Below are positions 7,663-14,166 of a stretch of DNA of 64,000 bases, piece by piece. The stretch's first letter is position 1. Each line of letters opens with the position of its first letter. Both the position numbers and the translations under genes were made by a program. The stretch comes from Phycisphaerales bacterium. Lineage in GTDB: Bacteria > Planctomycetota > Phycisphaerae > Phycisphaerales > SM1A02. The notes below the pieces were generated by a model. That model was not told where the DNA came from and did no database searches. It saw only the letters and a program-made list of their open reading frames with translations. The stretch is taken from positions 62,001-126,000 of the forward strand of contig JAJDDB010000016.1 of NCBI GenBank assembly GCA_029260575.1, read 5' to 3'.

Positions 7663-9306
7663 TCACAGCTCCACAAGCTGCATGTCGCTTTCGACTTCAT
7701 CTTCGCCGGCGGGCACGTGAACTTCCGTCATGAATTCGGTCAAACCGTGCTGGCGTGCCATTTGCTGGCGCATGTTCGCTGCGTTGTAGCGCTGCGGCCG
7801 TTCGCCGAGCCGCGCTGCCAGCAAGTCAAGTGCGATCTGTGATTCGCTCTTGCTGTAATCCGCGGGGTCGATCGCGCGTTCAAATGCCTGCAGACGATTG
7901 TTGACGTTCTCGAACGTGCCCGCCTTCTCTGCCCACGTCGCGCCGGGCACCACAACATCAGCCCGCTCCACCAGCTTGTTCGGCAACGTGTCAATCAACA
8001 CCACAAATCGATCGCCAAGCGCATCAAGCAGTTCCTGCGTGACCCATTCACTGGGATAGTTACCCGTGATGATGACAGCGTGATCCGCACTCGTGCTGCG
8101 CAGCGCGCTGAGGAACGCATCATATTCATGGACCGTACCCGCAATCTTCGTCAGCACACGCCGCACACCGCGCGCGTTGGGCGCTTTCTCCGCGTACATC
8201 GTGTACCCGTCCTTGAAGGTCTTATCCTCGCCCTCCATCGGCACGGGACCAACGCCGAACGTTGCCTTGGCATCGTGACTGGTGATGAAAGTACCGAGCG
8301 AATATGCATCTTCGCACGCCAGCATCGGGCTGATCAATGCAAGAACACCTGCTGCAGCGTCGAGTTTGTCGTTTACCTTGGCGTACGCAGCTTCATACGC
8401 AAGCGGCGCTTCGACATCTTCATACGGCTGCTCGCCGCGAATCATCGGCAGGCGCAAACGATTTTCATCGTGAATGAAATGCCATCCGTAGCGCTGCTCA
8501 TCGGTGATCCAGTATCGATTCACCTCCAGATTCGTGCGCGGCTTCATGCGATACACAACGCCCTTGTTGTGTTCGAGGAAGATGTTGTCACCGGAACACG
8601 TTATGCCATCAATCGATGGCGTCTTCTTCAGGAACCACACACGCTGCTGAAAGAGAAAATCCTTATCAAGCAGCGCGCCGACGGGACACAGATCGATCAC
8701 GTTCGCCGACAGTTCGTTATCCAGCGGTATGCCGGGGAAGATGTCGATCTGCTCGTGCGCGCCGCGGCCTTCGATGGTGATCTCGCCTGTGCCGGTGATT
8801 TCACGGGCAAAGCGCACGCAGCGGGTACACATGATGCAGCGGTCGGCATACAGCAGCACGTGCGGGCCGAGGTCCTTCTTTGGTTGCTTGATCTTCTGCT
8901 CAGCAAAGCGTGCCTGGCTGCGGCCGTACTGATAGGAATAATCCTGCAGCAGGCATTCGCCCGCCTGATCGCAGACCGCACAATCCACCGGATGGTTGAT
9001 CAGCAGGTATTCCATCACCGACTTCTGATTGGCAATGGCTTTGGGGCTGTCGGTGAAGACAACCTGCCCATCGCCCGCCGGCGTCTGACACGTCGGCAGC
9101 AGCTTGGGGATTGGCTCCAGCTTGTTGTCATTGCGGGGGTTGGGTGCCCAGACTTCCGCCAGACAGATGCGGCAGTTGGCGACAACGCTCAGCGACGGAT
9201 GCCAGCAGTAATGCGGAATCTCAATCTCGTGGTTGAGCGCGACTTCCAGAATGTTCTGGCCCTGCTCGAACTCCAGCGGCCGGCCGTTGATAGTGATCTG
9301 AGGCAT
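7663..9306 (-). CDS. nuoG: NADH-quinone oxidoreductase subunit G-like protein
   Basis: A 547-residue iron-sulfur subunit of respiratory complex I, in the peripheral arm on the cytoplasmic side. All the expected cluster ligands are visible: the [2Fe-2S] ferredoxin set Cys34, Cys45, Cys48, Cys73; the His-ligated set His105, Cys109, Cys112, Cys118 ('HPVDCAVCDQAGEC'); and the third set Cys157, Cys160, Cys163, Cys207 ('CIMCTRC' ... 'CPVG'). A shortened molybdopterin-oxidoreductase-like region follows, ending with 'AGTFENVNNRLQ'. I chose the ATG at 9306 because 'MPQITINGRP' is the family's usual beginning; an in-frame start at 9342 only adds non-conserved residues. No other nuo gene is adjacent, so the subunit is encoded apart from the rest of complex I. 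Shorter than the ~900-residue enterobacterial form, which is common outside proteobacteria. Confidence 0.92.
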   Translation of the reverse strand: MPQITINGRPLEFEQGQNILEVALNHEIEIPHYCWHPSLSVVANCRICLAEVWAPNPRNDNKLEPIPKLLPTCQTPAGDGQVVFTDSPKAIANQKSVMEYLLINHPVDCAVCDQAGECLLQDYSYQYGRSQARFAEQKIKQPKKDLGPHVLLYADRCIMCTRCVRFAREITGTGEITIEGRGAHEQIDIFPGIPLDNELSANVIDLCPVGALLDKDFLFQQRVWFLKKTPSIDGITCSGDNIFLEHNKGVVYRMKPRTNLEVNRYWITDEQRYGWHFIHDENRLRLPMIRGEQPYEDVEAPLAYEAAYAKVNDKLDAAAGVLALISPMLACEDAYSLGTFITSHDAKATFGVGPVPMEGEDKTFKDGYTMYAEKAPNARGVRRVLTKIAGTVHEYDAFLSALRSTSADHAVIITGNYPSEWVTQELLDALGDRFVVLIDTLPNKLVERADVVVPGATWAEKAGTFENVNNRLQAFERAIDPADYSKSESQIALDLLAARLGERPQRYNAANMRQQMARQHGLTEFMTEVHVPAGEDEVESDMQLVEL

Positions 9307-9424
9307 GCTGCAGATGGTAGCAGGGGGAGTCCAACCGGCCAAAACTCAAGCCCGTGATCCACGCTGATGCCATTTGAGAGAAGGCCATGACTCGCTACTC
9401 ATCGCCAACCGAAGGCGACAACGA

Positions 9425-10267
9425 TCAACTCGCTTGAAACTGCTTGGTGTCAAACAGGAAAGAGACAATCGACTTGGCCGAATTCACCACTAGCAAGGCG
9501 TGGCGCTTATCAGGCTTGTACCTTCGGACGTGTCTGTCGCCGAGTTGATTACTCAACGCGGAGAGTCCGTTGATAATTGAGGTTAGGCCTGACAATGTCT
9601 GTCGCAACGACGCATCCAGATTTGGCTTTCCGGGTTCGAGATTGAGGAGCTTCTGCACTCGGCGGAAGAGCTTCGTCAGATCACCATCATACTTGGGTGG
9701 ATCATCATCCAACTCGTCTTCGATGGATTTCAGGACAGCCTCAACAAGTGATCGTGCGTTTGTAATTGCCCCGTCATAATCACTATCACGAATCTTGTGT
9801 TCAGCCTTGCGAATCTGTTCATCTATGAACGCGTGACCGTCGTTTTCGGATCCTCCGAAAGGATGGCGACATTCAACAGCTGCGCCCTGTAGATCGCGAA
9901 CCTTCGCCAGTCCATTCTCGATGATCACTTCATAACCATCGTAGAACAGGCGTGGATTAATGAACTCCAATGCGTTCTCAACTTCAAACTCAGTGTCCAT
10001 AAACTCGCGAGGATCGAGTACGTGACAGATCAGTGCCGCCAGCGCAGGTGCGCCGTTTAGTCTCCGAATATGATCCTCGGCAAATTGCCACCGTGATGGA
10101 AACCCTTTCCCGTAAACATCATCGCCACCAAAGTCATTGAACAGACTGACAAGCTTAGGCCCGGACCGGTACTGTGTGACCGGTTCATCGCCGGTCACAA
10201 CTTTGCCAAATGCCGAAATGGTCCGAGCTGATAGCTTCATACCGCTAGGGTATGCAGCATCGGTCAT
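9425..10267 (-). CDS. abortive-infection family protein (Abi_C-type C-terminus)
   Basis: A 280-residue protein. The C-terminal ~130 residues match the abortive-infection C-terminal domain: 'ITNARSLVEAVLKSIEDEL', 'YDGDLTKLFRRVQKLLNL', 'LSGLTSIINGLSALSNQLGDRH' and 'RHALLVVNSAKSIVSFLFDT'. The N-terminal half ('YRSGPKLVSLFNDFG..DVYGKGFPSRWQFAEDHI') resembles the sensor-like domain often found in front of Abi_C, but I recall this only loosely. Family members act in phage exclusion; that role here is inferred, not shown. The start at 10267 is preceded by AGGGACAGG; the frame stays open upstream to 10573, but that stretch has no protein-like features. It stands alone, with the 21-bp repeat array upstream and nuoG downstream. 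Confidence 0.75.
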   Translation of the reverse strand: MTDAAYPSGMKLSARTISAFGKVVTGDEPVTQYRSGPKLVSLFNDFGGDDVYGKGFPSRWQFAEDHIRRLNGAPALAALICHVLDPREFMDTEFEVENALEFINPRLFYDGYEVIIENGLAKVRDLQGAAVECRHPFGGSENDGHAFIDEQIRKAEHKIRDSDYDGAITNARSLVEAVLKSIEDELDDDPPKYDGDLTKLFRRVQKLLNLEPGKPNLDASLRQTLSGLTSIINGLSALSNQLGDRHVRRYKPDKRHALLVVNSAKSIVSFLFDTKQFQAS

Positions 10268-10607
10268 CCTGTCCCTAGTTCTGTCCGAACGATGGGAGAC
10301 CTTAACAGTTGTAAATAGATGTAGGCCGCTGCGCATGTGAACGGGACTTTCTCGCTGGAATCTGGGGCGGAAAAAGGGTAAATCGCGAATGATCCGTGGA
10401 GTCTTTGTATCCTTCCCAGGAATCCTCACCCCTTTCCTCGGAAGCTCCGTTTGTCTCCATGCAAAACGTACGGCTTTCCATGGACAACTCGCGCAGAACC
10501 ATGGGTTGCTCGTCTGAAACCGAGGTTTCAGCGCCTCAAGGCCGAGTGCGGGCGCGCACGTCTTAGCCTCCATTGCTGATGTCTATACCCTGCGCCTGGT
10601 TGAAGAG
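10268..10607. other. gene-free stretch upstream of the Abi_C gene
   Basis: About 340 bases without a convincing gene. Both minus-strand and plus-strand frames are partly open but show no homology signal I can recognise. It holds one perfect 18-bp palindrome (10514-10531) and merges at its right end with the 21-bp repeat array. It should contain the promoter of the Abi_C gene; I could not pick a reliable -35/-10 pair. Confidence 0.5.
10514..10531. promoter_or_regulatory. perfect palindrome, possible operator of the Abi_C gene
   Basis: CTGAAACCGAGGTTTCAG: two 8-base arms with a 2-base centre, about 245 bases upstream of the Abi_C start. It has the form of a dimeric-regulator site, but it could also be a small hairpin at transcript level. 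No regulator gene lies next to it. Confidence 0.35.
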
Positions 10608-10964
10608 CCTGAGCGGCGCTTCGTCTCGCATTCGTAGTGCATCATCTCGCACGCGCGGATTGTCGTTGAACATACGGAAATACTCGTAGGGCGAGCTGAT
10701 GTGTTCATTGAACGCCCCGAGATGTACGTAGTGCTTGCGCCAATGTTCATCGTGCTTGCGAGAATGTTCGTAGAGCAATCGGGAAATGTGCGACTGCACT
10801 ACGAACAATCCCTCTTGTTCTACGAACATTCTGCATCGCTCTACGGACATTTCTAATCGCGCTATGATCGCTTGCTATCGCGCTACGAACATTGTCGATC
10901 ACTCTACGAACACGTTCGATCGCTCTACGAACATTCTCGATTGCTCTACGAACATTTCGGAAGT
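10608..10964. repeat. two-directional array of seventeen 21-bp units
   Basis: Read by eye, bases 10797-10964 are eight in-register 21-base units in plus orientation built around the core CTACGAACATT. Bases 10608-10796 are nine further units in minus orientation, becoming more degenerate to the left; the whole is exactly 17 x 21 = 357 bases with no slip at the orientation switch. The 19-base word CGATTGCTCTACGAACATT occurs perfectly at 10938-10956 and as its reverse complement at 10763-10781. In the same phase each unit reads as a heptapeptide like L-Y-E-H-S-R-K. On the minus strand this frame is open for 95 codons (10563-10850); on the plus strand unit 3 has a stop (TAA at 10854-10856). It could be a decayed heptapeptide-coding array, an iteron-like protein-binding array, or a hairpin-forming element. 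Confidence 0.85.
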
Positions 10965-10998
10965 CGCGAATGCACCATCGCCGGGTTTGATGTGCGGT

Positions 10999-13900
10999 TT
11001 ACAGCTCCACCGCTACATTGGCAGTCACGAACAGCACAACCATGCGGATGTCTGCGGGGGGGATGCAGTACATGTCTGCGACAGCATCGCGGTAGGTTTC
11101 GAGCTGCCCCCGGTAATGGTCTGCGCGATCAACAGCATCTTCTGCTGTGATGCGGTCGGTTTTGTAATCGATGATCGCAGCGCTGGTGTTCTGCTCGTCA
11201 CGGCTGGTGATGACGATGCGATCGATGATGCCGGTCTGCGGGCCGCCATCCACCAGACGCGCGAACGGCAGTTCGCGATGCACAGTCAGCGTTTCATTGG
11301 GCTTGCCGTGTGCAGTGCGGTCAAGCCAGTGCAGAACGTTTGGTTGCGCGAGGATCGCCTTGAAATCGCCAGCGATGTCTCGGGCCCACTGCGCTGACCT
11401 GCGGGGTAGTGCACGGCGAACTGCTTGCACCAACCGTTGTTGATCGAGCTGCGCAGCATCTTCATCAAACCATTCGATCTGTTCAAACATTGCATGAATT
11501 GCAGTGCCGCGATCATCGGCATCCTTGTCCCGACGATCGTGTTGTAGTGGCGCTACTGCGTGCGCTGATGGCGCGCTGCTGGAACTCACGCGCGATTTTG
11601 CACGCGGTATCTCGATTGGAATGCGAATCGGCTGCGCTTCTTCAGTTTCCGCCGGCTCTGCTGTAAAGCTGTCAAGCCAGTTGGCGCTGCCATGTTGATA
11701 CAACACCCGATCGGGTTCGATGTCCGCGACATCGTTGGACACAAGCGAACCGAGCAGCACGCCTGCCAGCGATTGCGGCAGCGATCGCGCTTTCTCGCCG
11801 GGCGGATCGACGAGCATGTACAAGCCCTGCCTGGCCCGAGTCAGCGCGACGTACAGCAGCGACAGGCTTTCGTGCACGATGTTGTTGATGGTGGCATCGC
11901 ACATGTCCTGCAGTTCAGGCAGCAGATGCAGCATGTCCTTGTTCGGAAAGCGAGTAATGCGCGTGATCGGGCCGGTGAGGCCGGCGCGTTCGTATGCGAT
12001 CGTCGGATTGTGATTGCCGCGCACCTTTGCGCCGAGATCAGGCAGGATCACCGCATCAAATTCAAGGCCCTTGGCTTTGTGAATGGTCATCACCTGAATC
12101 GGCGCGGGGCGGACATCGGGGACTTGCTGTGTTTCCACCAGCCGAATGAAATCATCAGGCCGCGCTGCTGGGCCGGCATCAAACGTGTCAGCCAGCTCGA
12201 TGAGCTGCAGCACTCGATCGCCTTCTCTGCGCGAACACATGCTGACAAGCTGTGCCGCCCAGCGCGCGAGCGTAGCTGCGTATCCATCCTCAGCAAGTTC
12301 ACGGCGAATGCGTTGCGATAGTGTCGTGCGGAGTTGCTGCCCGGAACGATCCGCAAGATGCTGCGGCACGTCATAAAGTTCTGCGACAGGTGAATTCGCG
12401 ACGTGATACGCTGCGATCGTGTCGCCGGGATGATCCGCAAGTGTGAGAAGATCGAGCAGAGCTTCAACAACAGGCGCATCAGTGAGCGAACCAGTCCCCC
12501 GTCCGCCTGCGGGAACATTGAGTTGATCCGGACCGAGTTCGTACAACAATCTGCCGACAGCTTTGTTCTGGCGGGTGAGGATGCCGATGTTGAGCTGGGG
12601 CGCATCACGATGCAGCTGCGCAGCGAGCTGCGCAGCGAGCTGTGCAGCGCATGTCAAGCGCAACCCATCTGCTTTTTGTCCTTCTTCAGGTCGTGGTAAT
12701 GTGCGCAGCTGCGCATACCCCGCAAGATCTTCGAGCACTGTCTCGTGTTCGGTGAAGAGTTCCGTCCAGCGGGTTGCAACGGGGTGATATTCACGCAGGG
12801 CTACGTTGTCCAGCAGCGCCTGGAAGACGTTGTTGACAGTTTCAACAATCGGCGGCGCGGAACGTCTGCTTCGAAACAGCGGTTCGCCATCCATCGGCAG
12901 CGCGTCGCCGGACTCGACGATCAAATTCGGCAGTTGTTCGAGGATTTCCGGCGCTGCATCGCGCCAGCCGTAGATGGATTGTTTGACATCACCGACACAG
13001 AAGAATGTTCTGCCGCGCGATTCATCTGCGACTACTTCCGCAACAAGTGGATGTAGCGCGTTCCACTGTGCGATGCTGGTGTCCTGGAATTCATCGAACA
13101 ACAGGTGGTCAATGGTTGCATCGAACCGAAAATACAGCTCAGCGGAGTTGTTCTCGGTGATGGCGGCCTGCAGCAATGGCGCGAGATCGCTGAACGTCAG
13201 CAAGCGATGACGGTTCTTAAGTCGTTCGTAGAGTTCAGCGAATTGCGACAGCAGCGTTGTAGTGGCGCGATTTCGTTGCCGAAGATCGTTGATGATGACG
13301 GCGCGGGCGTGTTTGATCAACGGGGCATACAGACGAATGACACTATCATCGATCTCTTTTCGTTGAAATGTGTCAGCACCCTGAACGATCTTCCCGGCAA
13401 TTCCTTTTGAGAGAAAATTCGCCCAATCGCGCTGGTCAAGTGCATCAACATTGATGCTGTGTCCGTTTCGCCAATGGCCGTTTGATTCATGAGGGCAGTT
13501 GCTTGCGAGCATTAAAGTCGCTGCGAGGAATTCATCATCAGACAATCGGCCGGCCGGTTCTGGTATTGAATCCCATGCGCCTGGGTTTGTGTTCAGCGAC
13601 ACATCATGAAGGTGCGTGATTTCGGCATCGAGCGTGTCGTGAACGCTTCGCCCAGCATCGGACATTGTCAGTTGTCGGAACAATGTGACGAGTTCAGCAT
13701 CACTGCCTGCTTCGAGCATGTGCGTAATTGATTCATCGCGAAGATGTCGCGCCTGGGCATCGTCAGCAAGTGCGCAGCCGATGGGTATGCCAAGTTCGGG
13801 CGCAAATATCTGCACGGCAGCGGCGAAGAAACTGTCAAGTGTTCGAATCTGCAGGACATGCAGTGATTGCGTCAATGTCCGAAGCAGCTCGATGATGTCT

Positions 13901-14166
13901 TTGGTGTCGAGATCGGCTTCCACCGCATTGGAGAGTTCATTGATCTTTGCAGGATTATCGAGTGCCTCGAGAAGCCGCATGATGACGCGCCCGCGGATTT
14001 CGCCGGCAGCGAGCCGAGTGAATGTTGTTGCGAGGATTCCTGGCGGGGGTTGGCCGCGCACGAGCAGGGACAGGTATTGTGAGGCAAGTTGATATGTCTT
14101 GCCGGTGCCGGCGGATGCAAGCAGTCGGCGGTGCGGCGGCAATGTCTCTTTGCGAAGCTTGATCAT
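10999..14166 (-). CDS. addA: AddA-like helicase-nuclease (UvrD-type exonuclease beta subunit)
   Basis: A 1055-residue superfamily-1 helicase with a C-terminal nuclease. Helicase motifs are all visible: Walker A 'ASAGTGKT' at residues 17-24, 'TFTRLAAGEIRGR' (motif Ia), 'LLFDEFQDTS' (motif II), 'VGDVKQSIYGWRDA' (motif III), 'TIHKAKGLEFDAVILPD' (motif V) and 'LLYVALTRARQGLYML' (motif VI). The C-terminal PD-(D/E)XK nuclease shows 'GIIDRIVI', 'AAIIDYKTDRI' and 'QLETYRDAV'. With AddB it would resect double-strand breaks to load RecA, and can degrade unprotected phage DNA. Its ATG overlaps the addB stop as ATGA, so translation is coupled. Confidence 0.88.
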   Translation of the reverse strand: MIKLRKETLPPHRRLLASAGTGKTYQLASQYLSLLVRGQPPPGILATTFTRLAAGEIRGRVIMRLLEALDNPAKINELSNAVEADLDTKDIIELLRTLTQSLHVLQIRTLDSFFAAAVQIFAPELGIPIGCALADDAQARHLRDESITHMLEAGSDAELVTLFRQLTMSDAGRSVHDTLDAEITHLHDVSLNTNPGAWDSIPEPAGRLSDDEFLAATLMLASNCPHESNGHWRNGHSINVDALDQRDWANFLSKGIAGKIVQGADTFQRKEIDDSVIRLYAPLIKHARAVIINDLRQRNRATTTLLSQFAELYERLKNRHRLLTFSDLAPLLQAAITENNSAELYFRFDATIDHLLFDEFQDTSIAQWNALHPLVAEVVADESRGRTFFCVGDVKQSIYGWRDAAPEILEQLPNLIVESGDALPMDGEPLFRSRRSAPPIVETVNNVFQALLDNVALREYHPVATRWTELFTEHETVLEDLAGYAQLRTLPRPEEGQKADGLRLTCAAQLAAQLAAQLHRDAPQLNIGILTRQNKAVGRLLYELGPDQLNVPAGGRGTGSLTDAPVVEALLDLLTLADHPGDTIAAYHVANSPVAELYDVPQHLADRSGQQLRTTLSQRIRRELAEDGYAATLARWAAQLVSMCSRREGDRVLQLIELADTFDAGPAARPDDFIRLVETQQVPDVRPAPIQVMTIHKAKGLEFDAVILPDLGAKVRGNHNPTIAYERAGLTGPITRITRFPNKDMLHLLPELQDMCDATINNIVHESLSLLYVALTRARQGLYMLVDPPGEKARSLPQSLAGVLLGSLVSNDVADIEPDRVLYQHGSANWLDSFTAEPAETEEAQPIRIPIEIPRAKSRVSSSSAPSAHAVAPLQHDRRDKDADDRGTAIHAMFEQIEWFDEDAAQLDQQRLVQAVRRALPRRSAQWARDIAGDFKAILAQPNVLHWLDRTAHGKPNETLTVHRELPFARLVDGGPQTGIIDRIVITSRDEQNTSAAIIDYKTDRITAEDAVDRADHYRGQLETYRDAVADMYCIPPADIRMVVLFVTANVAVEL

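Follow-up and report, generated by a model that had tools for sequence, protein, structure and literature searches.

The window, by which we mean the whole 64,000-nucleotide stretch of DNA that was analysed, carries an array of seventeen 21-bp units arranged in two arms of opposite direction. The array lies, as a preliminary description of the locus had placed it, between an AbiJ-like gene with an Abi_C C-terminus and the flank gene that we take to be addA, a name carried over from that description (Table 1). Beyond the AbiJ-like gene is a second flank gene, presumably nuoG, which was named by recognition. The AbiJ-like gene likely starts at about 10268 rather than at 10573.

Table 1. Features of the array locus, in window coordinates
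Feature	Position	Strand	Evidence or remark
nuoG-like flank gene	7663..9306	-	In six relatives, homologs of 60-72% identity directly follow addA
Stretch from addA stop to nuoG start	9307..10998		1.69 kb (1,693 bp) here vs 30-257 bp in six same-family relatives
AbiJ-like gene (Abi_C C-terminus)	9425..10268	-	PF14355, 5.7e-17; PADLOC AbiJ, 5.5e-22, residues 130-375 of the long ORF
Left arm, nine 21-bp units	10606..10794	-	Phase-sum against shuffles; reads toward the Abi_C gene
Inverted repeat, left half, 19 bp perfect	10763..10781	+	Repeat search
Switch between arms	10795..10798		Placement of the facing cores; identical spacing in the C3 homolog
Right arm, eight 21-bp units, core CTACGAAC	10799..10966	+	Tandem Repeats Finder, direct repeats, unit scoring
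Inverted repeat, right half, 19 bp perfect	10938..10956	-	Repeat search
addA-like flank gene	10999..14166	-	ORF; homologs in 26/31 genomes

Scoring against the unit CTACGAACATTCTCGATCGCT resolved the array into eight plus and nine minus units, the same tally as in the preliminary description. The plus slots (10799+21k) match this unit at 13 to 20 of 21 bases and the minus slots (10606+21k) at 8 to 17. The earlier text had envisaged that similarity among the units might not exceed that of shuffled controls; the matches of the minus arm sum to 110, far above 2,000 shuffles (mean 59, maximum 74). The plus arm was also called by Tandem Repeats Finder (10819-10956, period 21), and direct-repeat analysis returned seven 21-bp copies in register, in steps from 10799. 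The distance from the end of this arm to the stop codon of addA is ∼32 bp. We also recovered the 19-bp perfect inverted repeat reported previously, which is part of a longer inverted repeat within the array. The claim that no phase slip occurs at the switch holds approximately for the helix face and fails for the register. Specifically, the facing cores are 32 bp apart, with 30 bp between their dyad centres, rather than 21 or 42, and the 21-bp register thus slips by about one turn; this spacing amounts to about three helical turns, which keeps the cores on approximately one side of the helix. Because the core has partial dyad symmetry of its own (GTTC-TAC-GAAC), the direction of a unit is only partly meaningful.

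Arrays of constant period upstream of a gene family

A strict unit pattern matches the source genome, which its relatives place among the planctomycetes, at three loci: the window (C16), C3 and, marginally, C32. Relaxing the pattern of the core brings in C4, C27, and C28, where the arrays have other unit sequences. Searches with the unit sequence matched none of 40 relatives, and homologs of the array must therefore be sought through their period and a linked gene. The C3 array shares homology with that of the window (76% over 257 bp, switch included) and is likewise two-directional, with the same 32-bp spacing at its switch; the genes adjoining it (L009 7325-9944) encode a Vsr-like nuclease, a type IV-like restriction enzyme, and a type II DNA methyltransferase. 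The C3 array and several unrelated 21-bp arrays of the source genome lie just upstream of copies of one gene family, and the genes that directly follow the C3 and C32 arrays are homologous, at 29% identity.

We assessed this linkage on 74 family genes gathered by protein search alone, testing periodicity against block shuffles. Within 900 bp upstream, 60 of the 74 genes have a significant array with a period of 20, 21, or 42 bp, against 2 of 73 downstream regions (Fisher 7e-25), where one of the two downstream arrays belongs to a gene remnant with uncertain boundaries and a few loci are near-duplicates from one assembly, which brings the effective number somewhat below 74. Upstream arrays were not significant in the other 14 genes. 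Across 56 arrays the median is 9 units, and the array ends a median of 192 bp before the ATG; most run in one direction. Gene linkage and array class are both shown by these sequence statistics. An 800-kb portion of the source genome, sampled regardless of arrays, served as a base rate: it held only a handful of arrays overall, with 21 the commonest period. This sample contained three further gene-less arrays (C27:3591, C27:219110, and C27:304000), of which two are flanked by converging genes. In addition, full arrays are retained at two decayed family genes; arrays without a gene are thus not rare in the class. A solo 20-bp array at C27 (L064 3983-4397), with no family gene, has a unit resembling those of a period-20 family clade from the source genus and others. 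The preliminary description had further considered that related genomes might hold no related arrays; such arrays exist phylum-wide, traceable through period and gene linkage and not through unit sequence.

Array-bearing genes fall on both sides of the deepest split in the family protein tree, indicating that the linkage is old. Period 20 is nearly confined to one clade; the period is therefore largely inherited, which weakens any argument from period alone. Unit sequences are unrelated between most loci and alike only for close proteins (Mantel rho 0.10, p 0.02). Arrays are also replaced: the L171 and L200 genes are 84% identical, yet their arrays and leaders are unrelated, with period 21 in both, so that independent or replaced arrays return to the same period.

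Protein searches recovered 24 family copies or remnants in the source genome and 0 to 8 in close relatives. Of 392 genomes sampled from the phylum, 16 carry the gene, and they are spread over distant bacterial families; a search of named genomes with a three-sequence family alignment returned seven loci, mostly planctomycete. It has no Pfam, NCBIfam, or PHROG match. An AlphaFold2 model predicts a three-helix bundle followed by a beta sandwich (pLDDT 91; pTM 0.51, too low for a reliable placement of the domains relative to each other), and Foldseek matched the second half to fibronectin-III (FN3) domains (e.g., 1k85, TM by target 0.81); no DNA-binding fold is recognisable in the protein. Of the 74 loci, 17 have a GNAT-like gene within 1.5 kb downstream, some encode small beta-rich proteins there, and a tail-fibre-like repeat protein follows the family gene in one genome group. 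The ∼577 bp after the family gene are 78% identical between L111 and L117, with no match reported between the genes themselves; this segment overlaps the GNAT-like gene. No match to the family was found in named phages and plasmids. Three IMG/VR contigs (L182, L183, and L184) carry family genes 79-94% identical to a planctomycete copy and no array; in L182 and L183 the neighbour is a DNA methyltransferase gene, which is oriented differently in these two contigs.

Dyads, reading frames, and RNA folding

A dyad was significant (p<0.05 against column permutations) in 41% of the 56 unit consensuses, with a combined Fisher p of 9e-17, the other 59% of units having none at this level. Besides the core of the window class, examples are TCTGGAAC-N5-GTTCCAGA and TGAACATGTTCA. 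This excess bears on the main rival explanation, a neutral minisatellite, in which an ancestral 21-bp repeat upstream of the family is kept by slippage and unequal recombination and, read by no protein, inherits its period while its sequence drifts. The near restriction of period 20 to one clade, the persistence of gene-less arrays, and units that are alike only for close proteins all accord with such drift. We nevertheless hold it to be unlikely, though the strongest of the rivals, since a dyad excess in unrelated units is not expected from drift, the strict upstream position of the arrays is unaccounted for, and the unrelated arrays of the 84%-identical L171/L200 pair share period 21.

G-T and A-C mismatches at the dyads are balanced (141:119, p 0.19), and this lack of a G-U bias speaks for double-stranded DNA, not RNA. 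A transcribed hairpin array, acting as leader or guide-like RNA, accordingly seems very improbable. RNA of the window array does fold better than shuffles (z of -4.7 for the plus and -3.0 for the minus strand), but this excess follows from a two-directional layout that most members lack, and no Rfam match rose above chance. The cruciform element suggested previously faces the same restriction, being conceivable for the two-directional members only while most arrays run one way.

A heptapeptide-repeat gene, live or decayed, was another option of the preliminary description, for which one frame open throughout and a period that is a multiple of three would be expected. The 95-codon minus-strand ORF on which it leaned is present (10563-10850), and a 93-codon ORF runs over the C32 array. 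However, neither ORF matches any family above chance, the window array as a whole is closed in all six frames, and frames across the arrays are open at the null rate (84% vs 85% in permuted arrays). With a homologous clade of period 20 in addition, a coding origin is barely credible. A ribosome-binding-like motif, AAAGGAGGTG, was observed near the upstream array edge at L161, L171, L172, and L204, in two distant families; it was rejected as a general signal, because it is not general and the frames that follow it are not consistently open.

A gene-less array in a variable stretch

The window array and the AbiJ-like gene share a ∼1.6-kb stretch that is missing between addA and nuoG in six relatives. 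At the addA-nuoG junction of a relative from another genus (G016; L221 2560-2650 reversed), we noted four tandem 20-bp repeats of the TGCTGCAGACTCGCGGCGCA type. A profile HMM scan that does recover known remnants detected no family gene or remnant near the window array. Moreover, the right arm aligns with the C3 array in such a way that its gene-proximal end faces the addA stop, with too little space for a gene between them. This array is a solo copy, the gene part of which was lost or never present. On the simplest account it stayed behind as a relic when the gene part was lost, and the AbiJ-like gene is a neighbour in the same variable stretch. This stretch may have arrived in a single event, and it may be an insertion here rather than a loss in the relatives.

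Alternatively, the array could regulate the AbiJ-like gene, toward which its left arm reads. The orientation fits, the spacing of ∼340 bp is within the range of family genes, and gene and array occupy the same extra stretch. None of six other Abi_C loci in the relatives carries an array, however, and AbiJ/Abi_C was rejected on this ground as a general array partner; solo arrays at other loci, two of them between converging genes, likewise indicate that a regulatory role for the neighbour is not general. We therefore regard this regulation as improbable.

A further rival treats the arrays as a platform for recombination or insertion, i.e., as hot spots or ends for moving or swapping modules and their cargo, here the AbiJ-like gene. 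It would account for the absence of the array and the AbiJ-like stretch from the addA-nuoG interval of the six relatives, for the rise in copy number from 0 to 8 in relatives to 24 in the source genome, for 84%-identical genes with unrelated arrays and leaders, and for related genes in the three IMG/VR contigs. Against it, the analysis turned up no recombinase or transposase associated with the module, and arrays are lacking both from the IMG/VR copies and from the other Abi_C genes of the relatives. We consider this platform unlikely, slightly more so than the minisatellite and less so than regulation of the AbiJ-like gene.

Proposed mechanism and comparison with known systems

The window array is real and very probably a member of the helically phased class. 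Our best explanation, to which we would give an even chance, is that it represents, in solo form, a phased array to whose dyads a protein binds and which acts in cis on a dispersed module. This module comprises an array of ∼9 units of 20-21 bp as its upstream element, a leader of ∼190 bp, and the gene for the three-helix-bundle and FN3-fold protein, followed at some loci by small beta-rich proteins or the GNAT-like gene, and it is dispersed in multiple copies across Planctomycetota. Each array would serve as a platform that places a protein site, often dyadic, on the same helix face every two turns. The product of the module or a partner protein may assemble cooperatively along the array and act in cis on the module, through its expression or DNA handling. 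Slippage and conversion presumably turn over the units within an array quickly, while period and symmetry are kept. In the window, where the gene part is absent, the array would survive as a relic or serve the neighbouring AbiJ-like gene. Binding as the mechanism is conceivable on the sequence evidence, with a likelihood just short of even; the match of the C-terminal half of the family protein to FN3, with no DNA-binding fold recognised, counts against it. A bolder version, which is rather unlikely, is a two-part chromosomal system across Planctomycetota in which each helical-bundle and FN3-fold protein assembles on its own fast-changing, two-turn-phased upstream dyad array, solo arrays being relics or targets in trans.

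Upstream of one and the same family, the arrays vary in sequence from locus to locus whereas their period, and often their symmetry, persists; they thus offer a testable case of a DNA-protein pairing that turns over rapidly. Binding of the arrays by the family proteins would make the latter a new DNA-binding family in which a single genome holds many natural specificities; without such binding, the arrays would be an unusually clean minisatellite case with period inherited and sequence lost. Either way, the family gains a genomic context, and the arrays can be used to locate decayed or missing copies.

Among the three options of the preliminary description, an iteron- or centromere-like protein-binding array fits best, given the constant 20/21-bp period over unrelated sequences and the dyad excess, the binding itself being what we infer. 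Iterons and plasmid centromere arrays (parC, parS-type) are short in-phase repeats near the gene of their binding protein, with sites on the same helix face. The direct repeats in helical phase are shared (periods of 20, 21, or 42 in 60 of 74 upstream regions). In contrast, the arrays described here are chromosomal, occupy ∼24 loci per genome, and differ in unit at each locus; no Rep, ParA, or ParB partner was identified for them, the family lacking any Pfam, NCBIfam, or PHROG match and the window neighbour being AbiJ-like. REP/REPIN elements with RAYT are similarly dispersed palindromic repeats tied to a gene family, but a REP sequence is shared genome-wide, whereas units here differ per locus and the strict pattern occurs at only three; RAYT, moreover, is a TnpA_REP transposase, and the present family has no Pfam or transposase match. 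CRISPR arrays resemble ours as regular arrays beside a gene and differ in their constant repeat and unique spacers, whereas here the whole 21-bp unit repeats imperfectly; incidental inspection noticed no Cas gene near the arrays. Degenerate minisatellites or VNTRs share tandem units of 10-60 bp that vary between loci. They do not predict a fixed 20-21-bp period over unrelated sequences, dyads, or linkage to one family, and the upstream bias reported above runs against the absence of gene linkage expected of a neutral minisatellite. Such arrays are undescribed in the open-access literature that we searched. Of the known kinds that were tested, the array-gene module fits only the minisatellite, and that as a loose descriptive label. 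Should binding prove to be the mechanism, the module would work like an iteron or operator array without belonging to those families.
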